Positions 40,437 to 61,602 of a stretch of DNA of 64,000 bases are shown one piece after another; the stretch's first letter is position 1; the number at the start of each line of letters is the position of its first letter. Source of the stretch: an uncultured Glaciecola sp. (GTDB taxonomy: Bacteria > Pseudomonadota > Gammaproteobacteria > Enterobacterales > Alteromonadaceae); the NCBI RefSeq assembly GCF_937770335.1, contig NZ_CALJHY010000004.1, positions 1 through 64,000 of the forward strand, read 5' to 3'. The translations under genes were made by a program, and so were the position numbers. Under the pieces are notes generated by a model, which was not told the DNA's origin, searched no databases, and saw nothing but the letters and a program-made list of their open reading frames with translations.

Positions 40437-40459
40437 TTTAACCTCCTGCTATACACATT

Positions 40460-43672: not shown

Positions 43673-43690
43673 CCTGTTTTCGCCAAACTA

Positions 43691-43957: not shown

Positions 43958-43980
43958 ATAGAATCCCCTTCCGACACCAA

Positions 43981-44421: not shown

Positions 44422-44520
44422 GTTGTTCATCCCTTAGGGGCTGGTGATCACAATCGTAATCACATAACGGCCGTTTGTTGTCAAATTAACTTCATATTAA
44501 CAAAGTAAAAACGGAGGAAA

Positions 44521-44534
44521 TTGACCCAAATCAA
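44521..44534. promoter_or_regulatory. FNR/ANR-type box (divergent)
   Basis: TTGACCCAAATCAA fits TTGAT-N4-ATCAA with one mismatch. On the minus strand a TAATAT hexamer lies 22-27 bases past the box; on the plus strand a TATTTT lies at the same distance. One site could therefore activate both the stress-protein operon and the cytochrome gene. Confidence 0.75.
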
Positions 44535-44636
44535 ATCTAGATCCTATTTTTGGTTTATTTTGGATTAGGTGTAATAACCTAACGTTGAAAGCTATGCATT
44601 GCCTTCGCAATACAAGTGACTTAAGGGGATATTAGG

Positions 44637-45119
44637 ATGAGTAAAGGCACTATTTTATTTGGTCTAACATGTATTTTCGTATTGGCTGGTTGTGATACAG
44701 GAGTCGATTCACCAAGAGGCTTTAGTTTACCTGAGGGGGATCCTGAAGTAGGTAAGCGTGTGTTTTTGAAGTATCAATGTCTCGACTGTCATAGTATCGC
44801 TGGTTTTCAAGATGAACATATCGGACGCAAGAATGAACCTCCAATTGAACTTGGGTCGAATTCGGCAATAGTGAAGACGTATGCAGAATTGGTTACCAGC
44901 ATCATCAATCCCTCACATAGGTTATCGAGAGGCGCTCAGTGGGTAACCCTAGATGAAAATGGAGATTCCGTGATGCCCATTTATAATGATGTGCTCACGG
45001 TCTCTGAATTAATAGATATGGTTTCCTACATACAACCATATTACAAAGTCACTCCTTGGCCATATACGGTTTATCCAAATTACCAAATACACCAAGAAGG
45101 GGTTCTTAAAAAACCATAG
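44637..45119 (+). CDS. lipoprotein c-type cytochrome, copy 1
   Basis: The 160-residue protein has lipobox LAGC (Cys19) and one heme site CLDCH (residues 48-52), with a possible axial Met in SVMPIYND. A paralog at 61150 shares Cys19, the heme at 48-52, DSPRGFSLP and TYAELVTSIINPSH. It should sit in the membrane facing the periplasm and carry electrons; the partner is unknown. Its stop overlaps the convergent metallo-beta-lactamase gene by 14 bases. Confidence 0.85.
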   Translation: MSKGTILFGLTCIFVLAGCDTGVDSPRGFSLPEGDPEVGKRVFLKYQCLDCHSIAGFQDEHIGRKNEPPIELGSNSAIVKTYAELVTSIINPSHRLSRGAQWVTLDENGDSVMPIYNDVLTVSELIDMVSYIQPYYKVTPWPYTVYPNYQIHQEGVLKKP

Positions 45120-46509
45120 AGTCACCACGTTGAGGTACTCTCACCCGTATATTTAGGTCGTTCCATATAAGGTTTGATAGCGCGTCTAATGCCTTTGGTT
45201 CTCCATGCACTAACACAACTGATGGATTGTTTTTAAAACCTGTTAACCATTCCATCAGTTGATCCTGCCCAGCGTGAGCAGAAAACCCACCCAAAGTTTC
45301 AATTTGGGCTTTAACGGCAAAATCATCATTAAAAATCTTAATGTGCTTTTTACCATCGACGAGTAATCGTCCCAATGTCCCATTAGCTTGGTAACCACAG
45401 AAAATAAGCGTATTTCGAGAGTCCCAAATTCGTTGTTTAAAATGATGACGAATTCTTCCACCTGTACACATTCCGCTACCTGCGATAATGATTGCGCCTT
45501 TTTGAATACGATTAATGGCAATTGATTCTTCAACTGACACCGCCAAGTATAAATTGGGAATGAAATCTTTTAAAATAGAAGTAGCGTCTGGGCTGGCTAA
45601 TTGAATTTCGGCTTGATCCAACGCACTAAACCATTTGTCGTATACTCTTGTCACTTCAATCGCCATTGGACTATCAAGCGCAACGTGCCAGTTTTTTAAA
45701 AGCCCCTCCTTATGCAAAGTACCGAGGTAAAAAAGTATTTCCTGAGTACGACCGACGGCAAATGCAGGTATCATAATATTGCCACCGCGCGCCTGCGTGT
45801 CGATTAAAATGGTTCTCAACTGCTCCAAGGTATCTTCTATTTTTTTGTGATTACGATCACCGTAAGTGCTTTCCATCAGCACAACATCGGCCTCTTCGAT
45901 AATACTTAAGTCTTTCATTAACACCGCATTTTTATTGCCTAAGTCACCCGAAAACACGAGCTTTTTATGCAAACCCTGCTCATGAATGAAAAGCGTTACG
46001 ATTGCCGACCCAAGTATGTGCCCCGCATCTTGCAGTTGAATAGTTAAGCCATTCAACACTTCAACTTCTTTTTTGTATTCGATACCTTTGCAACGCTTAA
46101 GTGTATTTTCTACATCTTCGTCAGTATATTCTGGTAGCAGTGGTTCTTTACCTTTTCTAGCTCTGCGCACATTTTCTCTTTCGAGATCGCCAAAGTAAAT
46201 GCCGGCCGAATCTTTTAGCATTATATCCAGTAAACCAACGGTCGCTTTTGAGCAATAAATGTTACCTGAAAATCCCTGACTGACTAATTTTGGAAGCATT
46301 CCGCTATGATCAAGATGAGCATGCGATAATATGACAGCGTCTATTTCTTCTGGATTAAACTCAAAAACTTCTTTTTGAATTCGGTCAACATTGTGCCCCC
46401 CCTGATGCATCCCACAATCCAGTAAAATGCGACCAAAACTGGATGATTCAACCATGTGACAAGACCCTGTCACTTCTTGTGCTGCGCCATGAAACGTAAT
46501 TGTTGCCAT
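45106..46509 (-). CDS. metallo-beta-lactamase/beta-CASP RNase-like protein
   Basis: The 467-residue protein has the metal motif ILSHAHLDHSG (HxHxDH), the Asp motif VFSGDLGNKN, the beta-CASP insertion (GGNIMIPAFAVGRTQEIL and IIIAGSGMCTGGRIRHH) and the C-terminal His motif FSAHAGQDQL with VLVHGEPKA. This combination is the bacterial RNA-processing exo/endonuclease-like family (CPSF73-type). An FNR-type box lies 60 bases upstream of the start, so transcript turnover may be changed at low oxygen. Confidence 0.88.
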   Translation of the reverse strand: MATITFHGAAQEVTGSCHMVESSSFGRILLDCGMHQGGHNVDRIQKEVFEFNPEEIDAVILSHAHLDHSGMLPKLVSQGFSGNIYCSKATVGLLDIMLKDSAGIYFGDLERENVRRARKGKEPLLPEYTDEDVENTLKRCKGIEYKKEVEVLNGLTIQLQDAGHILGSAIVTLFIHEQGLHKKLVFSGDLGNKNAVLMKDLSIIEEADVVLMESTYGDRNHKKIEDTLEQLRTILIDTQARGGNIMIPAFAVGRTQEILFYLGTLHKEGLLKNWHVALDSPMAIEVTRVYDKWFSALDQAEIQLASPDATSILKDFIPNLYLAVSVEESIAINRIQKGAIIIAGSGMCTGGRIRHHFKQRIWDSRNTLIFCGYQANGTLGRLLVDGKKHIKIFNDDFAVKAQIETLGGFSAHAGQDQLMEWLTGFKNNPSVVLVHGEPKALDALSNLIWNDLNIRVRVPQRGDSMVF

Positions 46510-46568
46510 TAGCTTTCCTTATCAATAGGTGGTGCACCTAAGACTACTTTAGTAGCTAGTTATAGTTG

Positions 46569-46582
46569 TTGATGTCTATCAA
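46569..46582 (-). promoter_or_regulatory. FNR/ANR-type box before beta-CASP gene
   Basis: TTGATGTCTATCAA is a perfect match to TTGAT-N4-ATCAA. It ends 60 bases before the start at 46509, and TAGTCT lies at class II -10 distance. The identical -10-like hexamer occurs behind the acs box. Confidence 0.8.
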
Positions 46583-46649
46583 TATCTTTAGCTATTATGT
46601 AAAGGCAACGTAAGAACAGAGGTTTGTTACGAAGCTACAACTTCAAACT

Positions 46650-47498
46650 TTAACAATATTGAAAATATTGAGGATATAAGTGCGCTACCGTATTGGCCTT
46701 TTCAAGTGCTAAAAATTCATCATAACGATATGTTGGCCCCTGTTTACAAGCGTATGTGCTGCCAATATAACAGTGGCCACACAGGCCAACGCCACAGCGC
46801 ATTCTCCGCTCAATAGACATCCATATATCAGTACTTTTGAAGCCTAAGTCAACGCACATTTTCGCAACATTACTCATCATCGCTTCAGGCCCACAAGTGA
46901 GTAATATATCAGGATGGTGATCTACCTTATTTAAAACAGCAGAAAGATGTTCAGTCGGTAACCCTGAATGATCCTTGTCACCTTGAATATCGAGTGTCTC
47001 ATAAACGTTAATTTTCGACTGCCAACGCTCTCTTTCCTGTTTCAGTACCTGTGACTCTTGATCACGTGACGCATATAAAAGTGTGACAGAATTAGCTCGA
47101 CCTTGATCTATTAAATAATCGATGGCAGTTGTCACTGGCGCTAAACCGCAACCACCTGCCACAATTAATACCTCTTTTTGGTTTATTTCAGCCAGCGGCC
47201 ACCCATTGCCATAAGGCCCGTTATAACCCAACAGATCACCCTTTTTACAGGTGAATAATTGGTCGGTTAACTTACCTACTTTTCTAATAAGGGCATTAAA
47301 ACGGCCCTGTTCATCAGGGAATGATGTGTAAGTAAATGGCGCAAGCCCTCTGCTAGGCACCGTCAACATAAAAAACTGACCAATGGCTATTGGGCTCTCG
47401 AGTGCAAAGCCTATCGGCTCAAAAGTAAAATGCCGAGAGTCAGTTCCATCATCATAGAAATCGACTATTCGAATTGTTTGGGGGGTTAGTTGCAACAT
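46650..47498 (-). CDS. FAD/NAD(P)-binding oxidoreductase, sulfhydrogenase gamma-like (HydG)
   Basis: The 282-residue protein has an FAD domain (PFTYTSFPDEQGRF), the NAD(P)-binding VLIVAGGCGLAPVTTAIDYL (glycine-rich), LLTCGPEAMM and a C-terminal 2Fe-2S site (MRCGVGLCGHCYIGSTYACKQ, four Cys). This is the gamma subunit type of archaeal sulfhydrogenase and of DHOD-B-like flavoproteins. It overlaps the beta-like gene by 13 bases. Together they should move electrons between formate dehydrogenase and NAD(P). Confidence 0.87.
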   Translation of the reverse strand: MLQLTPQTIRIVDFYDDGTDSRHFTFEPIGFALESPIAIGQFFMLTVPSRGLAPFTYTSFPDEQGRFNALIRKVGKLTDQLFTCKKGDLLGYNGPYGNGWPLAEINQKEVLIVAGGCGLAPVTTAIDYLIDQGRANSVTLLYASRDQESQVLKQERERWQSKINVYETLDIQGDKDHSGLPTEHLSAVLNKVDHHPDILLTCGPEAMMSNVAKMCVDLGFKSTDIWMSIERRMRCGVGLCGHCYIGSTYACKQGPTYRYDEFLALEKANTVAHLYPQYFQYC

Positions 47499-48547
47499 AC
47501 TTCATCAATCCTTTTCATCACTGAATGAACACCAATTGTGCCTGGACAGGTCTGTTCACAACGCCCACACCCGACGCAACCATGTCGCTCAAATTCAGGA
47601 AGATATTCATCCGAAAACTTGTGAAACCAAAACCGCTCTACTCTTTGAGCTGCTTTATGACTTGGATTGTGGTCGCTAGCTTCACGCTGAAATGATTCAA
47701 ACAAACATGAATCCCAACATCTGACCGTCTCAAATTCCAATGTATTACTAATCGGCTCAGCTTCAATCACCTCAAAAGTACTGTAACAAGAACAAGTGGG
47801 ACAAAGATTGGTACAACCTGAACAACTCAAGCATCTAACACTCAGTTCTTCCCATAACTGTGCAGGAATTGACTTGTCGTTTAGATACTCAATTGCATTT
47901 GAAATATAACTAAAATCAGCAAACTGAGAACGCACTTGATCGCCTAATTTAGTTCTCAATTTAAAATGCCCTTCATCTGCTTTTTCCAGTGTGAGATCAC
48001 GTAGGCTGTCGACACCTTTTTCGCTTGATGCAACGATAAGCCACTCTGATGTATTCGTTCTGTCATCTATTTTTAAACGGCTTAAAATTAAATCCGCAGT
48101 GGCACTGTTAACATGCGGTCCGGCATTAACTTCAGCACAGAAACCGTTTTTGCAGGGTGCCTCGCAGTCTATGCCAACCAGCAAAACACTATCGCGCCTT
48201 GTTTGGTAATAAGGATCATGTTTGAAAAATTGGTCTTGGTATGCAATTGCGGTTAAATCGCAAGCCTGAACGCCAAATAGGACGATTGGTTTCACTTTAG
48301 GGTGTATGGTCTCAAAGGTTTTACCATCAAACTTATATAACGATTCTTGTTCTGGAAAAAAGAAGGCCTTGGGAGATGTAAGAGGTAAATTCGCATGGCC
48401 GAACAAAGGCGCACTGGTTGCCCCAGCTTGTTCCGTCCAAGTCACCTCACCATCGGTATCTTTTGCAAGTCGTACAACTGAATAATGCTGAGCAAGATGA
48501 GCGTTTAATATACTTAAATCTTTGAGTAAATAGATATCGTTTAGCAT
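47486..48547 (-). CDS. 4Fe-4S electron-transfer subunit, sulfhydrogenase beta-like (HydB)
   Basis: The 353-residue protein ends with two 4Fe-4S clusters: CLSCSGCTNLCPTCSC (about residues 225-240) and CVGCGRCEQTCPGTIG (about 328-343). The N-terminal two-thirds matches the sulfhydrogenase beta/anaerobic sulfite reductase A family (IVLFGVQACDLTAIAY, VGIDCEAPC). It sits 15 bases after the formate dehydrogenase gene and before the flavoprotein, so it should bridge the molybdenum subunit and the flavin subunit. No hydrogenase large subunit is nearby. Confidence 0.87.
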   Translation of the reverse strand: MLNDIYLLKDLSILNAHLAQHYSVVRLAKDTDGEVTWTEQAGATSAPLFGHANLPLTSPKAFFFPEQESLYKFDGKTFETIHPKVKPIVLFGVQACDLTAIAYQDQFFKHDPYYQTRRDSVLLVGIDCEAPCKNGFCAEVNAGPHVNSATADLILSRLKIDDRTNTSEWLIVASSEKGVDSLRDLTLEKADEGHFKLRTKLGDQVRSQFADFSYISNAIEYLNDKSIPAQLWEELSVRCLSCSGCTNLCPTCSCYSTFEVIEAEPISNTLEFETVRCWDSCLFESFQREASDHNPSHKAAQRVERFWFHKFSDEYLPEFERHGCVGCGRCEQTCPGTIGVHSVMKRIDEVCCN

Positions 48548-48562
48548 ATATATTCCTTGTGC

Positions 48563-50668
48563 TTATTGAATCACCCAGTCTTCAATATCAGTCGATATAG
48601 AAGATGGGCATGGCGATTGATTTTTGGGCAGAGGGACAATATTAACTGCACAAACCTTTAGCTCTGGCATTTCAGTGGTAGGGTCCATTGCATCATTGGT
48701 TAGCATATTAGAAGGCGCTTCTTTAAAATGATAAGGCATGCTCAATAAACCCGGTACCAGCTCATTGCTTAATACAATGCGAGTTTCGAGATAACCACGC
48801 CTAGATGAAACAGTTACCGCTTGATGGTTTTTCAAGCCCAGATCCAAGGCGTCTTGAGGATGAATATACAAAAGTCCATTTGGCGTTTCTCTCTCGAGTA
48901 AAGGAGATTGGCGAGTCATGGAACCGCACCCATAATGATAATGTAATCGTGTTGTAGTAAACCAAAAAGGATAGTAGGCGTCAGGTTGCTCATTCGTTGG
49001 CACGTGATCAACAGGAATAAGTTTACCTTTTCCTATTGGGAAAGTGGTTGTATGCAGCCAACGACTTCCCTTTGGATGCTCAGCATTGCATGGCCACTGT
49101 ATTCCGTTTTTCTTGGCTAAAAGAGAATAAGTCATACCACTAAACGAGCTAGTCAACTGAGCCATTTCATCAAATATTTGCTCACTTGTCTGCCAGTTCA
49201 TCAACCCACCTAAGCCCATTTTTTTAGCTATTTCGGACAATATTTGCCAATCAGCCTTAGCTTCACCCGGCGGTTCAATCGCTTTATGGATTAATTGAAC
49301 GCGGCGCTCACAGTTTGTAAACGTTCCGTCTTTTTCAGCAAAACTAGCAGCGGGCAGCACAATATCAGCCATTTTCGCAGTTTCTGTCATAAACAGTTCA
49401 ACAACTACTAATAAGTCCATCGCGCGCATGCTCGCTTCAACCTTATTGCGATCTGGATCGGTCACAATCGGGTCTTCACCACAAATAATGAGTCCTCTGA
49501 ATTTTCCATTTCGTGCCTGATTGCTCATTCCTAACGAAGTTAATCCTGGCGCTTGTGCAACCGTTGTATTCCAAGCATGACTAAATTTTTCACGTACTTT
49601 TTTGTCAGCTGCACTTTGATAATCTGGATACACGTTAGGCAAACTGCCCATATCGCAAGCACCTTGCACGTTATTTTGTCCACGTAATGGATTAACGCCC
49701 GTACCTTCTCTACCAATTTGACCGCACACAAGTGCCAGATTAGATACTGCGATAACGTTATTTGTGCCACTAATGAATTGTGTAATTCCGATTCCGTATG
49801 CAAGAAATGCGGCATTTGCTTGGCTATATAATTTAGCTGCCTCTACTAATTTTTGACCTTCTATCCCAGTCAGTTCTGCAACTTTGTCCAGCGGATAGTC
49901 AGCAACGTGCTTCTTGAGAGCATCGGTGCCTTCACAGCGACGGGCAAGAAAATCGTCATTTTGCCAATTGTGCTGAAAAATGATATTCAGTAAACCATTC
50001 AACAGCGCAATATTGCTTCCAATGTTAAGTTGCAGGTGCAAGTCGGCAATTTGTGCGAGACGAGTTTGTCGAGGATCAACAACAATAAGCTTGGCGCCAC
50101 GAAGTTTCGCTTGCATGATATGCCCACCAATAATGGCGTGATTCTCGGTGGAATCTGCGCCAATTATCAAAATGACGTCGGCTTTGGCCACATCATCGAT
50201 GCTGTTTGTCATTGCACCTGAGCCCAAGGTTTGCTTCAGACCTACTACCGACGGGCTGTGACAAATTCGGGCACAATGATCAATGTTATTGGTTTTTAAT
50301 ACGGCTCTAGCAAACTTTTGGGCCGCGTAATTATCTTCATTTGTTGCTCTAGCACTGCTAATCACGCCGACACTTTGAGAGCCACTTTCACGAATACATT
50401 TTTGCAGGTTTTGTGCAATGTAGGTCAATGCCTCTTGCCAACCAATAACTTCAAACACACCCTCCTTTTTCATTAAAGGCTGAGTTATTCTATTGTGCTT
50501 GCTGATCCCAAATGGAGTGTTCCAACCTTTAGCGCACAACTTCCCCTGGCTAATGGGATGTTTACTAAGTGGTTTTACAGCATTTATACAGCCGTCGTTG
50601 ACGACAAGACCCATGCCACAACCGACTCCGCAAAATGGACATATGCTATTAACTTGAGTTTGACTCAT
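48563..50668 (-). CDS. fdhF: formate dehydrogenase molybdopterin subunit (Cys type)
   Basis: The 701-residue molybdo-enzyme has a 4Fe-4S site C10-x2-C13-x3-C17-x27-C45 and the active-site ARICHSP in which Cys136 (normally Cys or selenocysteine) is followed by His137. Molybdopterin-binding motifs follow (VILIIGADSTENHAIIGGHI, LRGQNNVQGACDMG) and the C-terminal guanine-dinucleotide domain (TTTRLHYHYGCGSMT). The compact length resembles E. coli FdhF rather than the long NAD-linked FdsA type. It leads the fdh-hydB-hydG operon with a good FNR box upstream, and a formate channel gene lies next. It probably oxidises formate to CO2. Confidence 0.88.
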   Translation of the reverse strand: MSQTQVNSICPFCGVGCGMGLVVNDGCINAVKPLSKHPISQGKLCAKGWNTPFGISKHNRITQPLMKKEGVFEVIGWQEALTYIAQNLQKCIRESGSQSVGVISSARATNEDNYAAQKFARAVLKTNNIDHCARICHSPSVVGLKQTLGSGAMTNSIDDVAKADVILIIGADSTENHAIIGGHIMQAKLRGAKLIVVDPRQTRLAQIADLHLQLNIGSNIALLNGLLNIIFQHNWQNDDFLARRCEGTDALKKHVADYPLDKVAELTGIEGQKLVEAAKLYSQANAAFLAYGIGITQFISGTNNVIAVSNLALVCGQIGREGTGVNPLRGQNNVQGACDMGSLPNVYPDYQSAADKKVREKFSHAWNTTVAQAPGLTSLGMSNQARNGKFRGLIICGEDPIVTDPDRNKVEASMRAMDLLVVVELFMTETAKMADIVLPAASFAEKDGTFTNCERRVQLIHKAIEPPGEAKADWQILSEIAKKMGLGGLMNWQTSEQIFDEMAQLTSSFSGMTYSLLAKKNGIQWPCNAEHPKGSRWLHTTTFPIGKGKLIPVDHVPTNEQPDAYYPFWFTTTRLHYHYGCGSMTRQSPLLERETPNGLLYIHPQDALDLGLKNHQAVTVSSRRGYLETRIVLSNELVPGLLSMPYHFKEAPSNMLTNDAMDPTTEMPELKVCAVNIVPLPKNQSPCPSSISTDIEDWVIQ

Positions 50669-50727
50669 AACCAGCTCTGCGTATTAATCAATAAGTCCCT
50701 ATTAAAGTAGATAATGGGCATAATAAA

Positions 50728-50741
50728 TTGACGCTTATCAA
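50728..50741 (-). promoter_or_regulatory. FNR/ANR-type box before formate dehydrogenase operon
   Basis: TTGACGCTTATCAA (plus strand) fits TTGAT-N4-ATCAA with one mismatch. It ends 60 bases before the start at 50668, the same distance as the beta-CASP box, with a TACTTTAAT region near -10. Confidence 0.75.
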
Positions 50742-50860
50742 TATTTCGATGCTTATTTAAATGTGTCTATATAGGTTTATGCAGATGCAGCATTGATTTT
50801 CTCTGTGCTTCTCGATAAATGAATCAGCGACCCGTGACTCAGCGACAACTATGTTATGAC

Positions 50861-51685
50861 TTAGGTTGGCTTGTTATTTCGTTGATAAATCAGGTGATAC
50901 ACCAGACCAACGAATACACTACCGCCGAGCAGATTACCTAAAATGACGAAGAAAAGATTTCTCATAAAAGCATAAGATGTGATCAAATGCTCACTCGTTT
51001 CCACAACCGAAAAATAGTGAATTAACCAAGCGACTGGATAAAAATACATGTTAGCTACACTATGCTCAAATCCTGCAGCAACAAATCCGGTAACCGGAAA
51101 TATGATAGCAATGACTTTGTCTGTGACTGTTTTTCCAGCCAATGCCATCCAAACTGCCAGACAAACTAAAACATTGCATAAAACGCCTCTGAAAAAGGCT
51201 TCTGTATTGGATAAAGCGATTTTTGTTTCCACAATATGGATGTATTGCTGTGCTATTAAGCCCTCATTCATGAGTAAGTGTCCCGACAAGAAAACAAGTA
51301 TAGCCATACTCACTGCCCCGATAAGATTGGCTATACAAACGACAGTCCAATTTCGGAAAAGCTCGTACAAAGAAATTTTCTTATCGGCCCATGCGATGAC
51401 AATTAAGTTATTCCCGGTAAACAGTTCGGCTCCCGCCACAACAACTAATATAAGTCCAAGAGAAAATGCCAAGCCCCCGACTAATTGAGCGGTAGCAAAA
51501 CTTAAGGTAAGGTCCGATTTAACTAGAGCAAATAACATTCCGCCAATTCCGATAAATGCGCCAGCTAATAGTCCGAGCATCACCAATGATAGTAATGGAA
51601 GTTTGGCTTTTGCAACGCCGATTTTGTCAACTTGTGCAGCTATTTGAGCAGGTGAGTAAGCACTAAAACCATATATATTGCTCAT
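50861..51685 (-). CDS. focA: formate/nitrite transporter family channel (FocA/FdhC)
   Basis: The 274-residue protein has six membrane helices with the FNT signatures GAELFTGNNLIVIAWADKKI and CNVLVCLAVWMAL plus GFEHSVANMYFYP (conserved His that gates the channel). FNT channels pass formate or nitrite with protons. It lies between the acyl carrier protein gene (149 bases upstream) and the formate dehydrogenase operon, so formate uptake is the likely job. I found no FNR box directly before it; it may be read from the acs-pdh promoter. Confidence 0.88.
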   Translation of the reverse strand: MSNIYGFSAYSPAQIAAQVDKIGVAKAKLPLLSLVMLGLLAGAFIGIGGMLFALVKSDLTLSFATAQLVGGLAFSLGLILVVVAGAELFTGNNLIVIAWADKKISLYELFRNWTVVCIANLIGAVSMAILVFLSGHLLMNEGLIAQQYIHIVETKIALSNTEAFFRGVLCNVLVCLAVWMALAGKTVTDKVIAIIFPVTGFVAAGFEHSVANMYFYPVAWLIHYFSVVETSEHLITSYAFMRNLFFVILGNLLGGSVFVGLVYHLIYQRNNKPT

Positions 51686-51833
51686 TTATTTTCCCTTACA
51701 TAACTATGTTAATAGGTAAGATGATTACTTTTTTATTTTACTTCGGTTATATTTCAAGGTTTTTAAGCATAAAAAATATTTACCTCGGTAAAATACAAGA
51801 TTACTTTATACAAGCTAACTACGTGGCGACTTT

Positions 51834-52079
51834 CTAGGTTCTATTTTCAATATAATTAACCATCGACTGCAGCGACTGTACCTTGTCATAATCACTTTCT
51901 GATATCGTAATACTCGTTTCCAAAGAGACCGCTTCCAGTAGTTTCATGAAATCGATAGAGTCTAAATCCAGTTCTTCTCTAAGGTCTTCATTAGGGTCAA
52001 GTGACTCGATATCAACCTCAGGTGCAATGTCTAAAATGAGGCGGCAGATGAGTGTTTTTAATGCTAGTTTTTTATTCAT
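51834..52079 (-). CDS. acyl carrier protein-like (phosphopantetheine) protein
   Basis: The 81-residue protein has the phosphopantetheine attachment motif EELDLDSIDFMKLLEAV with Ser41. It overlaps the E2 stop codon by four bases (ATGA), so it is translated with pyruvate dehydrogenase. An acyl carrier protein at the end of a PDH operon is unusual, and it is distinct from housekeeping AcpP in its N-terminus. It may accept the acetyl group or serve in another transfer. The function is unknown. Confidence 0.82.
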   Translation of the reverse strand: MNKKLALKTLICRLILDIAPEVDIESLDPNEDLREELDLDSIDFMKLLEAVSLETSITISESDYDKVQSLQSMVNYIENRT

Positions 52080-53434
52080 AGTAACTTCTCTGGGGTTTGC
52101 AGTAATTTATTGATTTTGTTAAGTAGGCGAGCCCCAGAATGACCATCACTAACTCTATGATCTGCGGCTAAACTAATGTTAACGATGGTGGCACCAACAA
52201 TCTCATCATCTATTATCCAAGGCATTTTTCGTGGCCTGCCAATACCAAAAATAGCAACTTGAGGTGGAAAAATAATACTTTGAATACTGTCTGAACCTCT
52301 ATCACCGAGATTGGACACCGTCACTGTGGCATCTTGTACCTCCGACATCCTTAATCCGCCTTCTCTCGCTCGGGTCACTTGGTCGGTGATCTTATCCATT
52401 AACTCAATTGCACCTAGGCGATGTGCATTATGGATGGATGCGACAATGAGTCCACCAGTACGTAAACTAATAGCGTTTCCTAAATGCACTTCGTCTGATG
52501 CGTGATACTTACCGTCGTTATAAAAGCCATTAAAAGCAGGAAAGGTAGTTAGCGACCGAGCGATAGCACAATAAACCAAGGCATTAACTAATATTCTCTT
52601 GCTTGGAGGTAAATCTGCATTGTGGATACTTAAGCGGTCAAGTGCCTTGTTTAGCACAACATCAAGTTGCAAATAGTAGTGAGGGATTTCACGTTTAGAA
52701 CGACTCACGTTGGCAGAGATGGCTTGGCGCATCATTTCAGCAGGTTTAGGTTTTGTCTCTGTGATAGCTTTGGGCTGTGAAACCGTATCAGGCTGAAGGC
52801 TTTTTTCAGGCTGAAGGCTCTTTTCAGGCTGTAGGCTCTTTTCAGACTGAGAGCTCGATTGAACACGTATGTTTTTTGCCGTCTCAATATCTTGCAAAAT
52901 GATCGCACCTGCAGGACCATGCCCATGCTCGAGTTGACGCCAATCAAGACCTAGTTCTAGCGCTCGTTTGCGCGCTACGGGGGAGACAAGTAACGGTTTA
53001 TTTGGTTGCGCGTCTTGGCTTTGTTGGCTTTGTTGACTTAGCTCAGTCCTCGCTTCCTCTTTTTTAGTCCTGATGTCAGCCTCTTGCTTGCTCTGCGACA
53101 CGGTATTAGCTTTTACGTCAATCTCAGTCTCAGTCTCAGTACTCGGGATATTAACAACACTCTGCTTTTCTATATTGCTAGTGCTTACCGTGTTTTCGCT
53201 CAGCAAGCGCAATTGGGCAATGGGAGCACCTATGTCAAGTTCTTCACCTTCATCAGCCAGTAGTGAATCTATTGTACCGTTGTCAAACACCTCCATATCT
53301 ATTAGGCCTTTCATGGTATCGATACTCGCAATAATATCGCCCTTAGACACAGTTTGCCCCTCTTTAACATGCCATTGTGCGAGTGTCCCCGTTGCCATAT
53401 CAGAGCCAAAAGAAGGCATGGTGAGTATTTTCAT
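52076..53434 (-). CDS. pdhC: 2-oxo acid dehydrogenase E2 (pyruvate dehydrogenase acetyltransferase)
   Basis: The roughly 452-residue protein has one lipoyl domain (Lys42 in [12 protein letters not shown]), a long low-complexity linker (about 80-195), a peripheral subunit-binding domain ([15 protein letters not shown]), a second repetitive linker, and the catalytic domain with [14 protein letters not shown] 53434 overlaps the E1 beta stop by four bases (ATGA); upstream in-frame codons to 53578 lie inside E1 beta and are not used. The lipoyl motif DTMKG differs from the common DKA type. No E3 gene is nearby. Confidence 0.88.
52789..52860 (-). repeat. 18-bp tandem repeat in E2 linker
   Basis: Three clean copies of an 18-base unit (CAGGCTGAAGGCTCTTTT type; 52789-52806, 52807-52824, 52825-52842) plus one degenerate copy to 52860 encode repeated KSLQPE. 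The unit keeps frame, so copy number could vary without breaking the protein. Confidence 0.8.
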
Positions 53435-54426
53435 GAGACGATTTCTTGCTTTAATAAACCCAGTACTGCCTCGACAATTTTTGCAACTTGCGGTGTAACG
53501 GCGTCCTCTAAATGTTTTGGGTACGGGATCGGCACTTCTTCGCTGCACACTCTTATTGGAGGAGCGTCTAATGACCAAAAACAGTTTTCAGCTACCAATG
53601 CACATAATTCGCCCGCTAAACTTCCAGTGCGCCAACCTTCATCAACCACTATTAAGCGATGGGTTTTCTCAACAGAGCGGAATAGCGTGCCTGTATCAAG
53701 TGGTCTTAAGCTCCTCAAGTCTATTACTTCAACACTAACATTCTGTTGCGCCAATTGACGGGCGGCTTCCAACGCTTTGGGAAGCGATCCACCATAGGTT
53801 ACTAGGCTTATATCAGTGCCAGTTTGCCTAACTAGGGCACTGCACATATCTGGACAATCCTCAGGCATTGGGATTGCGGCCGATTCGTTATATAGCATAA
53901 CGTGTTCGAAAAACATGACAGGGTTGGGATCCTTTAATGCCATGCCAAGCATATAGCGCGCATCAGCAACAGTTGCTGGCGCTAGCACCTTGATACCTGG
54001 AACGTGTGCGTACCAATTTTCAAAACTATGAGAATGCTGCGCCGCAAGTTGTTTTCCAGCGCCCGTAGCCATGCGAATGACTAAGGGAATACTTACCTGA
54101 TTACCTGACATATGGCGTATTGTTGCTGCATTATTTACAATTTGATCCAGCGCTAGCAGACTAAAATTAACTGTCATAATTTCTACAATGGGCCGCATTC
54201 CACCAATAGCAGCTCCAATTCCGGCGCCAACAAACCCCGATTCGGACAAAGGAGTATCGATAATTCGATTTGATCCAAAGGTTTCTGATAAGCCTTTGGA
54301 TACAGCATAACAACCACCATAATTACCGACGTCCTCACCCAACAAAACAACACGTTCATCGGCATTCATAGCTTCTTCTATCGCTATTCTAAGTGCTTCT
54401 CGATACGTTAAAGTTTGACTTTTCAA
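53431..54426 (-). CDS. pdhB: pyruvate dehydrogenase E1 beta subunit
   Basis: The 331-residue protein has the thiamine-diphosphate transketolase-like beta layout: [16 protein letters not shown] near the start, [24 protein letters not shown], and a C-terminal [14 protein letters not shown]. Its start overlaps the E1 alpha stop by four bases. Together with E1 alpha it forms the alpha2-beta2 E1 enzyme that decarboxylates pyruvate and acetylates E2. Length is usual for heteromeric E1. Confidence 0.92.
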
Positions 54427-55499
54427 GACTCCTCCTCCGCGTAAACACCGAGGTATAAGTCTGATATCTCTTCTAATGGGGATCCCTCTGCGAAAACGAT
54501 TGCTTGGTTTATTTCGGCAGCGACTTCGTCTTCAATTTCAATTAATTCATCAGCACTGAGCTTGTCATTGGCTTCAAGCCAGCGTTTTAATTTTTTAATA
54601 GGCCCTTTACTTTTCCATTCATCTACCTCATCTGCTTTACGATATAATTGCGTATCAAACATAGAATGGCCACGAAAACGATAGGTCTTACATTCTAACA
54701 AACAGGGCCCATCACCATTTCTAATGCTGTTACAGTATTGGCTTGCTGCTGACTCAACTTCAACGACATTCATACCATCCACGGCATGTGCGGCTAAACC
54801 ATAACTTTGCGCTTTACGAAAAATATGTTGTTCAGATTCTGAGATAGCTAGTGCTGTGCCCATGGCATAACCATTGTTTTCGCAGACAAATAAAATGGGG
54901 AGGTGCCACAGTTTTGCCAAATTAAGACTTTCATGAAACTCACCTTCAGCTACCGCTCCTTCACCAAAGAAACAAACGACAACATTTTTTTTGTTTTGCA
55001 TTTTGTTTGCTAAAGCTAAACCGACAGCCAAAGGCAAGGCTCCAGCAACAATGGCATTACCCCCATAAAACTGTTTTTCAACATCAAAGATATGCATAGA
55101 ACCGCCTCGGCCTCGGCTGCTGCCAGTGACCTTGCCAAACATTTCTGACATCACCTTATCCATACTTAAGCCTCGAGCTAAGGCATGACCATGCTCACGA
55201 TAAGTTCCAAATACCGCATCCTCTGGCTTGAGTGCTTGCATGATACCAACGGCAACGGCCTCTTCACCTATGTACAAGTGTAGGAAGCCACGGATCTTTT
55301 CCTGCGTGTATAGTTCTGCACACTTTTCTTCAAAACGCCTAATCCTAAGCATTTGCTTAAAGAGGAATTTAATATGCGCTATATCCATGTGTATTTTGTT
55401 GATATCGGTGTGTTTCTTGCTAATGTCGGTTTGCATAGTGTTTGTGCTCTTCGTACTGGCTATTTGACTAAGGAAGTCATATTTAGGTGGTTTCGTCAC
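54423..55499 (-). CDS. pdhA: pyruvate dehydrogenase E1 alpha subunit
   Basis: The 358-residue protein has [28 protein letters not shown], the thiamine-diphosphate motif [17 protein letters not shown] (GDG...N type) and the phosphorylation-loop-like [15 protein letters not shown]. These fit pyruvate rather than acetoin or branched-chain E1. An N-terminal leader of about 35 residues contains short repeats (DISKKH, DINKIH) and may be extra; GTG 55499 is the ORF start and the ATG at about 55436 is an alternative. It overlaps acs by 17 bases. Confidence 0.88.
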
Positions 55500-57243
55500 T
55501 TTCTAATGTAGAAATATCTCCCTCAGGGAGGCCAAGTTCGCGAGCCTTTAATAACCGCCGCATAATTTTTCCGCTACGAGTTTTAGGTAGATTTTGCTTG
55601 ATACAAATTTCTCGAGGGGCTAATGCGGGCCCTAATTTTTTACGTGCATGCGCCATGATGCTTTTGCTTAAAGCCGCATCAGCTTTGTAGCCATCGTTGA
55701 GCGATACAAACGCTTTTACTAATTCTCCTGCTATTGGGTCTGGAACACCAATTACCCCAGCTTCGACGACAGCCGGATGTTCTATTAAGACGCTTTCTAT
55801 CTCGAATGGCCCAATTAAATGTCCGGCTGATTTAATCAAATCTGAACGCCTGCCAACGAACCAGAAATACCCATCATCATCTTTGTATGCCAAGTCACCA
55901 CTGAGATACCAGTCATCGTTAAAGCAATCTTGATAGCGCTTAGTTTCATGCAAGTAATCACGAAACATCGAGGGCCAACCTTTTTTAAAGGCTAACTCTC
56001 CGGTTTTATTGGATGCAGTTACTTCGGTTAAATGCCCCTGATCATCGACCTCAACAATACCTGCCTTAATGCCAGGCAAAGGCTGACCCATTGACCCTGG
56101 TTTCACATTCTCACTAATAAAATTAGCAAGCATAATTCCGCCGGTTTCTGTTTGCCACCAGTTATCATGGAATACTTTGCCTAAATATTTCTGGCTCCAT
56201 ATGACCGCTTCCGGATTTAACGGCTCACCAACACTGGCCAAGAAACGTAAATGCGAAAGGTCATAATTAAGGGATAGCAAGTTTCCAGCTTTCATTAACA
56301 TACGAATGGCTGTTGGCGCGGTGTACCAAATATTGACGTTTTCTTTCTCTAGGATGTTGTACCAACGAATTGCGTCAAATTCAGCATTATCAACGACCAA
56401 TGTTGCGCGGTTACATAATGGCGAAATTACGCCATAGGATATTCCGGTAACCCAACCGGGGTCAGCCGTGCACCAAAACACATCTTGAGGATGTATATCA
56501 AGCGCATAGTAACCCGAATATTTGTGATATATGACCGCTTCATGCACATGCACCACCCCTTTGGGTTTGCCCGTTGTGCCACTGGTGAAATGTATTAGTG
56601 CCGTATCTTGTGCAGCCGTTTCGCATATAGTGAATTGGTCACTTTGTTGAACCAAAACATGGTCTAAATCAATGCAGTCGCTAGGACATTCTCCATCGCA
56701 GTCATATAGTAATACGGTCTTTAGGGCTAGATATTCATGACGCCAAGTAGCCACCTTCTTTTTGTAAAGCTTGCCACTAGTGAGCAGAACCGTCGCACCG
56801 CCGATCTTCATTCTAGATTTTATCGGCTCCGGCCCAAAAGCAGAAAACAAAGGACTGAACACCACTCCAGACTTTAAACAACCAATCACCGCTGTATATA
56901 GAATAGGACTGCGGTCGGTTAAGCTGCAAAGTAGATGTCCTTTATCTACTTTTAAGCTTTTTAAAAGATTGGCAAAACGATTGCTCGTTTGTTGTAACTG
57001 AGCATAAGAGAATACTTTACGCTGCTGTTTTTTTTCTAAAAATATGAGTGCCGTTTGGTCTCCATATCCTTCTTCAACATGCCGGTCAACGGCTTCATAA
57101 GCCATATTGATACCATTTTTATATCCCTTAATAAGCTGTTGAGCTTCATGCCAATTAAAATCATCATAACTTTGGTGGTAGTTGACCATGTTAGCCAGTT
57201 TATTTGTGGCACTTACGTCTTTCTTAATTGGTGCATATTCCAT
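55483..57243 (-). CDS. acsA: AMP-forming acyl/acetyl-CoA synthetase
   Basis: The roughly 586-residue adenylate-forming ligase has [18 protein letters not shown] (P-loop), [40 protein letters not shown], and the C-terminal Lys motif [12 protein letters not shown]. These match acetate-CoA ligase; it is shorter than E. coli Acs and like the AcsA type. ATG 57243 has GGAG five bases upstream. It is the first gene of acs-pdhA-pdhB-pdhC-acp and has an FNR box 67 bases upstream. The substrate (acetate or other short acids) is inferred. Confidence 0.85.
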
Positions 57244-57309
57244 GTTGACTCCAAAGTAGACCATTGGCAAAAGCATCAATGTAGACTAATCAAATGGGTA
57301 GATTAAGGT

Positions 57310-57323
57310 TTGATCTGTATCAA
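57310..57323 (-). promoter_or_regulatory. FNR/ANR-type box before acs-pdh operon
   Basis: TTGATCTGTATCAA is a perfect match to TTGAT-N4-ATCAA. It lies 67 bases before the start at 57243, with TAGTCT at class II -10 distance. Confidence 0.82.
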
Positions 57324-57399
57324 AATTGAAGACGATAGCCTGACGTGATTAGGTCACATAATGCGTCGACAAACTCACTAATACCAAACGTAGATTATG

Positions 57400-57413
57400 T
57401 TGACCTGCATCAA
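57400..57413 (+). promoter_or_regulatory. FNR/ANR-type box before DUF4136-cbpA operon
   Basis: TTGACCTGCATCAA fits TTGAT-N4-ATCAA with one mismatch. TAGAAT lies 22-27 bases further on, a good -10, and the lipoprotein start is 77 bases from the box. With the box at 57310 it gives the divergent pair of promoters. Confidence 0.8.
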
Positions 57414-57489
57414 CATACTTTGACCCATAAAACGTAGAATTGGCACTTCAGAGTTGAGGGTTTATTTATTAAGTTTTAGGAGAGTAGCT

Positions 57490-58060
57490 ATGATCGCAAG
57501 AATAACGCTAACGATTAAAACCATTATTTTATTGCTGTCGATGTCAACCTTATTTGCTTGTACAGCAACCCCAAAAAATTCATAGTATGGTTGACGAAAC
57601 TGTCCAATTCAATAGTTACCAAACTTACGACTTCCACCCTAATACCATCGCATCTGGCAACAATTACGATAGTTTGTCTGCTCGGTATATAAAGCAAGCG
57701 ATACAAAATGAAATGCGCAAAAAAGGTTACACGCAAACAGAAGATGCCGAGCTATGGATCAATTTTAATGTGTATGTTCAAGATAAATTAGAAGTCGATA
57801 CTATGCCATCAATGTCTTTGTATTATGGTTTTAGGCGAGGTTACGGTGTCTGGGGGAACTACCCTTTGATACAAGAACGAATTAAACAATATACTGAAGG
57901 CACACTTACTATTGACCTTATTGACCATAAAACGAACCTTTTATTGTGGGAAGCGGTGGCTATCGGCAGAGTATCAAGTCGTACTTATGACAACCTTGAA
58001 TTTAAGATCAATGAAACAGTGAAACTGATGTTTGAGCGGCTTCCAAGTGACGCTCTTTGA
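57490..58060 (+). CDS. DUF4136-type lipoprotein, possible N-terminal frame break
   Basis: From ATG 57490 (GGAG upstream) the frame gives a signal with lipobox LFAC (Cys about 26), then stops a few codons after a run of six A (57573-57578). The rest, HSMVDETVQFNSYQTYDFHP onward, is in the frame one base over. Five A would give one protein of about 189 residues with a lipoprotein signal and a DUF4136 domain (DAELWINFNVYV, LTIDLIDHKTNLLLWEAVA). Function is unknown. If the break is real, translation from about 57554 would give an unlipidated product. It precedes cbpA and cbpM. Confidence 0.7.
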
Positions 58061-58099
58061 ACAAAGGAGTTCAGGTTATTTACACAGAAGGATTAATTG

Positions 58100-59044: not shown

Positions 59045-59049
59045 CAGCT

Positions 59050-59349
59050 ATGGTTGATATCACCCTATATATTCCCATTGATGAGTTGTGCGAAAACGCA
59101 AGTATAAAAATCGAGGTCATTTTAGAAATAGTTGAATATGGTATAGCAACACCTCAAGGGGGCGTGACTCTGTCAGATTGGGTTTTCGATTTAGAAAGTG
59201 CTCATTGGATTAAAAAAGCAATTAAATTAAATCAGGATTTTTTACTTGATTGGGTCGCCATCAGCATAGTCATTGATCTAATGAAAGAGAAGGAAAAATT
59301 GAAACAGGAAAATGAACGACTAAAAAGCAGATTAAGCAGGCTACTTTAG
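59050..59349 (+). CDS. cbpM: CbpM-like chaperone modulator (MerR-type helix)
   Basis: The 99-residue protein has the CbpM fold (LCENASIKIEVILEIVEYGIATPQGG then DLESAHWIKKAIKLNQDF) and a C-terminal coiled coil (KEKEKLKQENERLKSRLS). CbpM binds the J domain of CbpA and blocks both DnaK stimulation and DNA binding. It begins five bases after cbpA and is surely co-translated. Confidence 0.85.
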   Translation: MVDITLYIPIDELCENASIKIEVILEIVEYGIATPQGGVTLSDWVFDLESAHWIKKAIKLNQDFLLDWVAISIVIDLMKEKEKLKQENERLKSRLSRLL

Positions 59350-59451
59350 CTATTATTCCAGCCTGTCGCTGTAATAATATTAAAAGACCTTTTTCCCCAT
59401 AGGGAAATTAGCTTATTAAATGCAGAATGAAGATGAATAAAATGTCAAAAG

Positions 59452-59898
59452 CTACTGTGGAATTAACTTAGTATCGCCACCTCTCACAGCTAAAACATCT
59501 TGTTTTGCACAATGAAGTAGGCTATTCGCTGCTGATCCCAATAACACTTCATGTTCGTTCCCACCGCGAGTGCCAACAATAATCATATCGGCTTTAATAT
59601 CACTGGCAAAATCACATATTTCGCTTGCTATATATCCAACAGGTGTATGGATGTTGTCTTGCGGTATTTCAAATTTACGAGCAATTTGGCTCAATCTAGT
59701 TTTAGCTTGCAGGGTTATATCTGTCACATATTCAACCCCAACTGAACTAATGTAAGGTTGAAAATAAGTGATTGGTAGCGTAACAAAAACTAAATATACT
59801 TGGTTGGCTTTTTTTGCAATGCACAGCGCACTTTGCAACACATGATCATACTCAGCATAAACATCGATTGCCGCAACGATACGTTTATAATTTTTCAT
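59452..59898 (-). CDS. universal stress protein (UspA family), copy 2
   Basis: The roughly 148-residue paralog of the protein at 43981-44421 shares MKNYKRIVAAIDV and the nucleotide motif IVGTRGGNEHEVLLGSAANSLLH. ATG 59898 has GGAG six bases upstream. It lies downstream of the Crp/Fnr regulator gene on the same strand, with 79 bases between, and converges on cbpM. No FNR box of its own was seen. Confidence 0.87.
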   Translation of the reverse strand: MKNYKRIVAAIDVYAEYDHVLQSALCIAKKANQVYLVFVTLPITYFQPYISSVGVEYVTDITLQAKTRLSQIARKFEIPQDNIHTPVGYIASEICDFASDIKADMIIVGTRGGNEHEVLLGSAANSLLHCAKQDVLAVRGGDTKLIPQ

Positions 59899-59976
59899 AT
59901 CTAGCTCCAAGTCCTAGCGTATTGCGTTTAATGATTGCCCTATTAAAGGCAAACTACAGCAGCGCAAATATCAAAC

Positions 59977-60801
59977 TTATCGATGAGTCCTTACATAGGG
60001 ACTAGAAACTGAATTATCGTTCTCTGATTTAGAGACGAAAAATGAGTCGCCCATAGATATTTTACTATGTGAGCTAGTCGACAATGAATTCGAGCTCAGG
60101 TCTCTCGAGAGAATATGACTTAACGCTGTAATATCTAAAATTGATAGTTGGCGATTGCTGACAGAAACTAATTTTTTGAGCTGAAAGCCTGCAAATATTC
60201 GGCTAACCGTTTCAAGTGCCATTCCCAAGTAATTTGCAATGTCGGTGCGTGACATACTAAGTCTAAATTGTGTCCCACTAAGCCCTAGACATGCAAAGTG
60301 ATCTGCTCGCTCAAGAATAAAATGGGCAACTTTCTGCTCACTAGAATAGGAGCTTAAACACATCAGCATTGAACTGTCGCACGTTAACGTATGACTTATT
60401 GCTTTTAATAAACTATGACGAAAATCATCTTGATTTCTAACTAAGTCATTCAAATCAGATTCTTTGATAAAACACACACTGCTTGTTTCGAGAAAAAGTA
60501 CGTTGTGCATATGAATATGTTGGTCAAACCCATCGACTCCTAATATGTCTCCGGGATAAAAAAACTTCGTAATATACTCTTCTCCGTCTGCAGAGTTAAT
60601 AACTGCCTTAGCAGAGCCTGAGCGCAATATGTATAGACCCTCGAATTCGTCTCCGACCGATATTAGCGTTTGTCTTGTATGATAAACTCGATGCGAAGGC
60701 CCAAGTGTATAATTGCCTGATTTTGACGCACTTTCCAAGCAAGCTTCTAACGAAGAATAGTCTTTATTTAGGTAATTAGCATTCCAAGATGAAATTGTCA
60801 T
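59977..60801 (-). CDS. Crp/Fnr-family regulator, FNR-like DNA helix without Fe-S cysteine set
   Basis: The 274-residue regulator has a cyclic-nucleotide-binding-like sensor (about residues 30-145: GDEFEGLYILRSGSAKAV) and a winged helix with MSRTDIANYLGMALETVSRIF. The E..SR residues are those by which FNR reads TTGAT. The N-terminus has only one Cys (Cys21), not the three needed with a fourth for 4Fe-4S. A Ser-rich tail of about 45 residues follows the DNA-binding domain. ATG 60801 is preferred to the TTG at 60843. It is probably the controller of the boxes at 44521, 46569, 50728, 57310, 57400 and 61047. The signal it senses is unknown. Confidence 0.87.
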   Translation of the reverse strand: MTISSWNANYLNKDYSSLEACLESASKSGNYTLGPSHRVYHTRQTLISVGDEFEGLYILRSGSAKAVINSADGEEYITKFFYPGDILGVDGFDQHIHMHNVLFLETSSVCFIKESDLNDLVRNQDDFRHSLLKAISHTLTCDSSMLMCLSSYSSEQKVAHFILERADHFACLGLSGTQFRLSMSRTDIANYLGMALETVSRIFAGFQLKKLVSVSNRQLSILDITALSHILSRDLSSNSLSTSSHSKISMGDSFFVSKSENDNSVSSPYVRTHR

Positions 60802-60834
60802 AATTTTCGAAACCTCTATATTTATGTTAGTCCA

Positions 60835-60848
60835 TTGACGCAAATCAG
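60835..60848 (-). promoter_or_regulatory. degenerate FNR-type box before regulator gene
   Basis: TTGACGCAAATCAG matches TTGAT-N4-ATCAA with two mismatches and lies 34 bases before the regulator start. That is close for activation, so autorepression is more likely if the site is real. Confidence 0.4.
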
Positions 60849-61046
60849 AAGCGAATATATCTAGCAGTCAAAATTTTTCTATGTAACAAATGGTAGCGGT
60901 AAAAAACTATACTAACCATCCGAATGACTACCTAATTAGTTGCGGAAAACACCTATTTCAGATGTAAACAAGTACGCTTATTACAATAGCAATAGCGTCA
61001 AATTAAATGACTCGTCGGGTTCTATTAAATCCCATACACCTTCAAC

Positions 61047-61060
61047 TTGATCTGCATCAA
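61047..61060 (+). promoter_or_regulatory. FNR/ANR-type box before second cytochrome gene
   Basis: TTGATCTGCATCAA is a perfect match to TTGAT-N4-ATCAA, 90 bases before the start at 61150. CACAAT lies near -10 distance. The rest of the 60849-61149 region is AT-rich with no further feature seen. Confidence 0.82.
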
Positions 61061-61149
61061 TAATTAAAAATACGTAAGCTACACAATAATTAAAGTAGGG
61101 TTTATGAAATTTATTAGTTGACCCAAAAATTGAGGTTCAAGGAAAAAAA

Positions 61150-61602
61150 ATGAAAAAATATTCTATTTTACTGATAACAATTGGAACGATTTCTCTGACC
61201 GCTTGTGATTCTGGTCCAGACTCCCCAAGAGGGTTTAGTTTACCTCAAGGCGATGCAGCAGATGGCCAACAAGTATTAATCAAACATCAGTGCCTTGCAT
61301 GTCATACGATGGAAGGATTAGATGCAGAGGGGCTCGCCCCTGAGCTACAGCTCCGGGTTAGATTAGGCGGCGAGGCAAGCAAAGTGACAACTTATGCAGA
61401 GCTAGTGACCAGCATAATTAATCCATCTCATAAAATCGCGAAAGGCTATGAACTAGATTCAATAACAGAATCGGGCATGTCCAAAATGCGCAATTATAAT
61501 GATATTATGACCGTTACAGAACTGGTAGATTTAGTGACTTACCTGCAACCTCATTATAAAGTAAAACCATATGAATATACCCCATATGGTCGTTATTATT
61601 AA
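61150..61602 (+). CDS. lipoprotein c-type cytochrome, copy 2
   Basis: The 150-residue paralog of the protein at 44637 has lipobox LTAC (Cys19) and heme site CLACH (48-52) at identical positions, with DSPRGFSLP and TYAELVTSIINPSH conserved. The first copy has MPIYND as possible axial Met; here it reads SKMRNYND. A perfect FNR box precedes it. AAGG-like AAGGAAA precedes the ATG. It is the right boundary of the island. The electron partner is unknown. Confidence 0.85.
   Translation: MKKYSILLITIGTISLTACDSGPDSPRGFSLPQGDAADGQQVLIKHQCLACHTMEGLDAEGLAPELQLRVRLGGEASKVTTYAELVTSIINPSHKIAKGYELDSITESGMSKMRNYNDIMTVTELVDLVTYLQPHYKVKPYEYTPYGRYY

Follow-up and report, generated by a model that had tools for sequence, protein, structure and literature searches.

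FNR boxes and a cysteine-less FNR relative in a Glaciecola genome: a possible FixLJ-FixK-type relay rebuilt from FNR

The canonical FNR regulon of Escherichia coli is marked by the box TTGAY-N4-ATCAA and by class II promoter spacing, and the mycobacterial DosR dormancy regulon contains genes for universal stress proteins (Usp), Hsp20, CBS proteins, a Ca-type P-ATPase and phosphofructokinase. In the FixL-FixJ-FixK cascade of Alphaproteobacteria (Sinorhizobium, Bradyrhizobium and Caulobacter), a heme-PAS kinase and a FixJ-type response regulator are joined to an activator of the FNR lineage that has no iron-sulphur (Fe-S) cysteines. Rhizobium FixKf is a cysteine-less branch near FnrN under the two-component system hFixL/FxkR (Tsoy et al. 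2016, PMC4999443). Here we analyse a stretch of 64,000 nucleotides from an uncultured Glaciecola sp. (Alteromonadaceae; contig NZ_CALJHY010000004.1 of assembly GCF_937770335.1), which we call the window, and within it an island of genes that stand beside FNR boxes and include one for an FNR-like regulator, FNR2. An initial annotation had described the island as a self-contained, mobile or conserved low-oxygen/energy-stress module. We favour, with moderate confidence, the account that a low-oxygen regulon extends over the genome and is densest in the island, and that FNR2 has come under a FixLJ-FixK-type relay rebuilt from FNR.

FNR boxes in the window and across the genome

The exact pattern TTGAY-N4-ATCAA was searched for in the window and in the whole genome (3.85 Mb in 18 contigs, the window belonging to contig C4). 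Seven exact matches lie within 16.5 kb (16,540 bp) of the window, six of them intergenic: TTGACCCAAATCAA at 44521..44534 (+ strand), between the divergent usp1 gene and a gene for a c-type cytochrome-like lipoprotein; 46569..46582, before the beta-CASP gene; 50728..50741, before fdhA; 57310..57323, before acsA and the pyruvate dehydrogenase (PDH) genes; 57400..57413 (+), before DUF4136-cbpA-cbpM; and 61047..61060, before a cytochrome c gene (cytc). The initial annotation had placed these six correctly, including the three (46569, 57310 and 61047) that match exactly on both strands. It had missed the seventh, at 52934..52947 (+), a probable chance match within the PDH E2 gene. Its range of 60-105 bases between box and gene holds for usp1 (91 bp), the lipoprotein (103 bp), beta-CASP (60 bp), fdhA (60 bp) and cytc (90 bp); the acsA open reading frame (ORF) starts 31 bp from the box, another ATG being 67 bp away.

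The predicted enrichment of boxes in the island was borne out by the genome scan, with 7 sites observed against 0.21 expected (Poisson 3e-9). When all 56 distinct exact sites of the genome were placed at random, any such cluster arose in 1 of 20,000 simulations, and random placement of the 34 intergenic sites yielded no cluster of 6 in 20,000; these simulations assume uniform placement, and the span was picked after the boxes were known. By a simple ORF rule the remaining 22 sites are intragenic. Read backwards, the pattern gave 19+12 matches in the genome, versus 39+39 for the true pattern. We scanned 20 of 28 candidate target proteins beyond the window against Pfam, and 17 had a family match: among them are cytochrome oxidase subunit I, Usp, Hsp20, Cpn10, a ferritin-like protein, phosphofructokinase, an ATP synthase beta-type subunit, a CBS protein and a 2-hydroxyacid dehydrogenase, as well as the less telling HlyD protein, HMG-CoA reductase and mechanosensitive channel. 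Judged from these sequences, the boxes look like those of an ordinary FNR-type low-oxygen regulon spread over the genome, with the island as its densest patch; the low-oxygen/energy-stress content that the initial annotation had read from the island genes is likewise supported.

Two outside loci are recorded for their arrangement. On contig C2 an exact box at position 34100 lies between the HMG-CoA reductase gene and a small gene without a Pfam match. On contig C13 (1468-6966, locus L046), an N-type ATPase operon, its AtpR subunit present, and a phosphofructokinase gene diverge around an exact box, close to a second FNR2 gene and FixLJ-like genes.

Promoter architecture was examined by scoring the -10 hexamer at every spacing, with boxes oriented towards their genes. 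The initial annotation's -10-like hexamers at class II distance were found in all seven window promoters (both directions of box 44521 counted), starting 21 bases (six promoters) or 22 bases (one) after the box and carrying 3-5 of the 6 consensus bases. In a set of 44 oriented promoters, comprising these 7, 23 hand-picked beside island-type genes in relatives and 14 from beta-CASP loci (many of them orthologues, and hence not independent), the mean score was 2.89 at a gap of 21, against 1.66 (standard deviation 0.17) at other gaps. For 40 promoters read in the direction away from the gene, the score at this gap was 1.93, with a maximum of 2.08 elsewhere; similarly, TxxxxT at gap 21 occurred in 26/44 promoters towards the gene versus 7/40 away from it. 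At 28 non-island promoters of the same genome the peak again fell at gap 21 (2.79 vs 1.74, standard deviation 0.22). A -10 hexamer about 21-22 bases past the box is the class II FNR arrangement, and the promoter sequences thus fit class II activation, in a form that appears common to the regulon outside the island. A self-contained regulon is therefore rejected: 49 of the 56 exact sites lie outside the window, the same spacing recurs at non-island promoters, and a canonical FNR with the same type of recognition helix is encoded on contig C7.

Exact boxes recur before island-type genes in relatives, namely before usp1 (G003, G209, G172), cytc (G003, G010, G020, G175), fdhA (G003, G092, L107, L108), focA (G092, L107, L108), cbpA (G003, L108) and acsA (G003); G003 also has a box in the intergene corresponding to that between usp1 and the lipoprotein gene. 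A search with the beta-CASP protein matched 93 of 196 family genomes, and of the best 30 of those loci, 17 carried within 250 bp upstream a box that was exact (6 loci) or one mismatch away; 81,750 bp of background contained 18 matches of this quality, 3 of them exact. Orthologues scoring at least 560 bits, a threshold set afterwards, were present in 8/14 FNR2-bearing family genomes versus 18/182 others, the genomes being related.

FNR2 and the FixL/FixJ-like pair

FNR2 is encoded at 59977..60801 on the - strand (likely ATG at 60801; the ORF opens at 60843). Its recognition helix, ETVSR, follows the E-T-x-S-R pattern, in agreement with the initial annotation's FNR-family regulator with matching recognition residues. 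Beyond what that annotation had described, the N-terminal CxxC..C ligands are absent, while a central cysteine (ETSSVCFI) is retained; the effector domain is recognised by Pfam. The genome carries a second FNR2 gene on contig C13 and, on C7, a canonical Fe-S FNR with CxxC..C and an ETISR helix. Against the NCBIfam FNR model NF008365 (cut-off 228 bits), the window and C13 FNR2 proteins score 147 and 154 bits, versus 353 for the canonical protein. Their scores against the Caulobacter FixK model are lower still, only 72-78 bits with a cut-off of 300. FNR2 thus shares with FixK an FNR-type helix without Fe-S ligands, but its scores do not mark it as a FixK orthologue, a judgement made from models and not from a tree that includes alphaproteobacterial FixK.

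Family-wide searches identified FNR2 as a second FNR lineage, which trees separate from canonical FNR with strong support. The CxxC..C motif is kept in 9 of 18 FNR2 proteins and missing from the other 9 (the window's included), versus 38/38 canonical-type proteins that keep it. A partial FNR2, L108, also reads as cysteine-less, and G092 and G209 each have both forms. In the tree, most FNR2 end branches exceed those of canonical FNR in length. A single cysteine loss was not rejected (p-AU 0.146; L173, a distant Crp-type protein present in the tree, was left out of this test), although the tree prefers 2-3 changes; repeated loss is thus not claimed, and the ligands would have been lost at least once and possibly several times. 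We do not claim a one-mismatch FNR box just before FNR2, at 60835, as visual inspection of the C13 and G003 regions showed no counterpart.

The C13 FNR2 gene is neighboured by genes for a PAS-HisKA kinase and a receiver-LuxR regulator, named here FixL-like and FixJ-like because both score below the NCBIfam curated cut-offs. Such a pair adjoins FNR2 in 10 of 16 neighbourhoods scanned, beside both cysteine-less (own C13, G003, G010, G020, G092a, G209a, L108) and cysteine-bearing forms (G175a, G034, G088). No pair is adjacent to FNR2 at G002, G172, G209b or G092b, nor to the canonical fnr of the Glaciecola genome, and the G006 FNR2 adjoins a weaker kinase. By position, G172, G122, G149 and G191 have a FixL-like gene some 8-27 kb away from FNR2, the last three being beyond the 16 neighbourhoods. 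A FixL-like kinase of at least 300 bits is present in 13/15 FNR2-bearing genomes versus 0/7 congeners without FNR2 (Fisher 2e-4, for related genomes and a threshold set afterwards); two of the seven have weaker matches, at 231-243 bits. One of these weaker kinases (243 bits), in G009, lies about 6 kb from a short FNR2-like stretch (contig C17:83725-83907; query residues 219-279, with two internal stops), a possible remnant of a lost FNR2.

All seven PDB sequences matched by the kinase PAS domain at E<=1e-8 are FixL, and the columns of the heme histidine and of Arg220 are kept in 15/15 aligned kinases, so that a FixL-type heme-PAS domain joined to a histidine kinase is predicted. The response regulator combines a receiver with a LuxR-type helix-turn-helix, and its best PDB relative is FixJ, at 145 bits narrowly above 1yio at 143.

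Upstream of FNR2, at 60916..60955 (- strand), lies a conserved element that the initial annotation had not recorded, a putative FixJ-type operator made up of TAGGTGTTTTCCGCAA and a second part. Alignment of 10 intergenic regions defined it as about 40 bases, with TAGGTATTTTCCGCAA followed by TTA(C/G)G...AT. Its strict core stands upstream of 10/18 FNR2 genes versus 0/38 canonical fnr genes, where 0.02 would be expected per group. The 16-base form has exactly two copies in the Glaciecola genome, each before an FNR2 gene (window and C13), and five other matches with two mismatches; the backwards control gave 4+3. Elsewhere the element lies between FNR2 and the FixLJ-like genes, a linkage from which we infer that the FixJ-like protein binds it; we lean on linkage because likeness to a known site is not significant in itself. 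The element resembles at 11 of 16 positions the S. meliloti FixJ site quoted in PMC4999443, and we rejected this as proof of FixJ binding, since shuffled versions of the C13 region reached the same likeness in 654 of 2000 cases.

Island genes and gene order

Downstream of box 44521, on the - strand, runs a series of genes (38805..44430) encoding usp1 (43981-44430), a DUF211 protein, a VIT-family protein, a Ca-type P-ATPase (40460-43093) and a Na/phosphate cotransporter (38805-40436). Divergent from it is the lipoprotein gene (44637..45119, +), whose product has no Pfam match and contains, by eye, the c-type heme motif CLDCH. The beta-CASP/RMMBL metallo-hydrolase, a ribonuclease-like protein, is encoded at 45106..46509 (-); its best NCBIfam model is type VII Cas14, at 379 bits far below the cut-off of 800. 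No literature report joining a beta-CASP protein with FNR and Usp was found by title or abstract opening.

A putative soluble NAD(P)-linked formate dehydrogenase (FDH) occupies 46650..50668 (-) and consists of FdhA (48563-50668), a HydB/AsrA-like protein (47486-48547) and a HydG/AsrB-like protein (46650-47498). FdhA scores 776 bits against the NCBIfam FDH alpha subunit (cut-off 666). Its nearest structures are an F420-linked FDH and FdhF of the hydrogen-dependent CO2 reductase, and it has a cysteine that aligns with an X, presumably selenocysteine, of 9t1s. Its two companion proteins match the gamma and beta subunits of sulfhydrogenase, pointing to NAD(P) as the redox partner. Nine loci were found for the AsrA-like protein, two named relatives being from Paraglaciecola, with 69 and 68% identity; by this kinship the host is probably a member of the Alteromonadaceae in or close to that genus. 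Further genes on the - strand encode a FocA-like member of the formate/nitrite transporter family (50861..51685; above the family cut-off, and at 229 of 290 bits below that of the FocA equivalog), an acyl-carrier-protein-like protein with an LDSI site by eye (51834..52079), the PDH-type complex (52076..55499: E2 52076-53578, E1 beta 53431-54426, E1 alpha 54423-55499) and an AcsA-type acetate--CoA ligase (55483..57279; 844 bits, cut-off 729). A small acyl-carrier-protein-like gene adjoins the PDH E2 gene also in L107 and G181.

Pyruvate formate-lyase (PF02901) had no match in any of 11 genomes searched, and acetate kinase, present in 5 of the 11, had none in the Glaciecola genome. With FDH, a FocA-like transporter, a PDH-type complex and AcsA present, and these two enzymes unmatched, the block could either make acetyl-CoA and formate from pyruvate or use outside formate and acetate. 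Among the literature matches listed (10 of 36), no paper was seen to combine FDH with PDH and FocA.

Next on the + strand are a DUF4136 gene (57554..58060, start uncertain), cbpA (58097-59044; best NCBIfam family at 381 of 403 bits) and cbpM (59050-59349; 75 of 138 bits), the latter two below the cut-offs. At 57490-57560 a frame for a lipoprotein-like signal peptide (ATG 57490) stops near the opening of the DUF4136 frame, beside a run of A, and the DUF4136 gene looks frameshifted or misassembled there. A second Usp gene (59452..59910, -) adjoins FNR2, as one does in G003, G010, G092, G209 and G175, and cytc follows at 61150..61602 (+).

The comparison of gene order that the initial annotation had called for showed that boxes can be kept with their blocks, but that the order itself is modular. 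In the congener G003 some 0.5 Mb separates the formate/acetyl-CoA block from the usp-beta-CASP-cbpA-FNR2 block, and both have boxes; in G092 the genes for Ca-ATPase, VIT, DUF211, Usp, FNR2, cytc and FDH fall within about 16 kb.

Alternative explanations and known systems

In the account that we favour, the canonical Fe-S FNR (C7) could read the island boxes, and FNR2 would be a second FNR-lineage activator that lost the Fe-S ligands and kept the recognition helix. A drop in oxygen would activate the heme-PAS FixL-like kinase and the FixJ-like regulator encoded on C13 beside the second FNR2; the pair would activate the fnr2 genes via the TAGGTATTTTCCGCAA-type element; and FNR2, acting like FixK, would bind TTGAY-N4-ATCAA and turn on the stress proteins, beta-CASP protein, CbpA/CbpM, ion transporters, cytochromes and formate/acetyl-CoA module. 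More tentatively, and as a joint proposal that is possible rather than probable, an Alteromonadaceae FixLJ-FixK relay is being rebuilt from FNR and feeds a PDH/FDH acetyl-CoA-plus-formate route. FNR2 would have come under heme FixL/FixJ while still carrying its Fe-S ligands, as in G034, G088 and G175, which would have two oxygen sensors in series; the ligands would then have been lost (window, C13, G003, G010, G020, G092, G209, L108), giving an activator controlled by its amount, with FNR-box genes responding at an oxygen level unlike that of FNR. In the same proposal, PDH and the soluble NAD(P)-linked FDH would replace pyruvate formate-lyase.

Several observations weigh against FNR2 acting in such a relay. 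The window FNR2 has no FixLJ alongside, the cysteine-less FNR2 of G002 occurs without a FixL-like match, and G006 has a weaker match only. The kinase reaches 328 bits against the NCBIfam FixL cut-off of 850 (a rhizobial model, the best of 60 families matched), and the regulator 225 bits against the FixJ cut-off of 255 (the best of 26). The core pattern of the element was defined after most positive regions were known, so that its count of 10/18 is not independent, and of 8 regions new to the pattern only G209b has it. Moreover, the core stands before 8/9 FNR2 genes with an adjacent FixLJ-like pair versus 2/9 without (window and G209b); the element may therefore act at a divergent fixLJ promoter, either in addition to fnr2 or in its place, and it is mainly the window and G209b copies that tie it to fnr2. 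The fdhA genes of G181, G095 and L109-L114 lack an exact box alongside. Finally, box counts do not follow the presence of FNR2 across 13 congeners, and we rejected FNR2 as a reason for more boxes because the counts of congeners with and without it overlap.

These similar box numbers suit an explanation that we consider rather unlikely, in which only the canonical Fe-S FNR reads the boxes and the FNR2 of the island, as a paralogue that is decaying or has specialised, has other targets. The canonical protein is kept with its CxxC..C and ETISR helix, the -10 spacing is the same at non-island boxes, FNR2 end branches are mostly the longer ones, and G009 has the stop-containing FNR2-like stretch that may be a remnant; plain decay, however, would preserve neither the FNR2 recognition helix nor an upstream element in 10/18 cases. 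That FNR2 itself senses NO, heme, redox state or a nucleotide, in the manner of DNR/NnrR, instead of being controlled by its amount, seems to us less probable again. NO-responsive DNR and NnrR are FNR-superfamily proteins without N-terminal cysteines, and the effector domain of FNR2 is one that Pfam recognises; against this, an oxygen input is more simply provided by the FixLJ-like pair linked to FNR2, together with the element, and no scanned window protein rose above a curated NO/denitrification cut-off, the rest of the genome lying outside that search.

We regard a mobile genomic island with its own control circuit as very improbable. Distribution among congeners is patchy and the blocks sit at differing places with their boxes along, as mobility would have it, but the mobility suggested by the initial annotation gains no support: integrase and transposase families had no match among 30 proteins scanned (31-64 kb), ARAGORN found no tRNA in the window, window G+C is flat at 0.37-0.44 with no composition signal, and boxes and related regulators occur throughout the genome. 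The idea that a short motif has clustered by chance deserves practically no credence. Many exact matches are doubtless fortuitous, given the 22 intragenic sites among 56; the simulations (1/20,000 and 0/20,000), the -10 spacing and the recurrence of boxes before orthologues all argue against it for the island.

FixK-like regulators have the appearance of FNR relatives in which the protein's own sensing of oxygen was abandoned once the signal came from a kinase relay; here, among close relatives, the same type of kinase pair is found next to FNR2 with the cysteines and next to FNR2 without them, and a canonical FNR and a cysteine-less FNR2 coexist in one genome, so that the order of events and the gain from losing the sensor would be directly testable in marine bacteria. 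By title and abstract opening, in a survey whose coverage left out most subscription journals, we found no report of a FixLJ or cysteine-less FNR system in Alteromonadaceae; PMC11526790 cites FixLJ only in its reference list.

Compared with these described systems, the locus shares with the E. coli FNR regulon the box, the class II spacing and the recognition helix; its regulator, in contrast, lacks the cluster ligands and falls below the curated FNR cut-off (147 of 228 bits). The likeness to the DosR regulon is one of gene content near the boxes only, regulator family and site being different. Rhizobium FixKf is alike in being a cysteine-less branch near FnrN under two-component control, and differs in its hFixL/FxkR system and its alphaproteobacterial host. 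The closest parallel is FixLJ-FixK, with its heme-PAS kinase, FixJ-type response regulator, and FNR-lineage activator that is without Fe-S cysteines, keeps the FNR helix and has a conserved element before its gene. It differs from the Glaciecola locus in that (i) the host here is a gammaproteobacterium of the Alteromonadaceae, (ii) the activator here is nearest to FNR (147-154 bits for the NCBIfam FNR model, 72-78 for FixK), (iii) the targets here are stress and energy genes, no scanned protein exceeding a curated nitrogen-fixation cut-off, and (iv) cysteine-bearing and cysteine-less relatives here adjoin the same kind of kinase pair.

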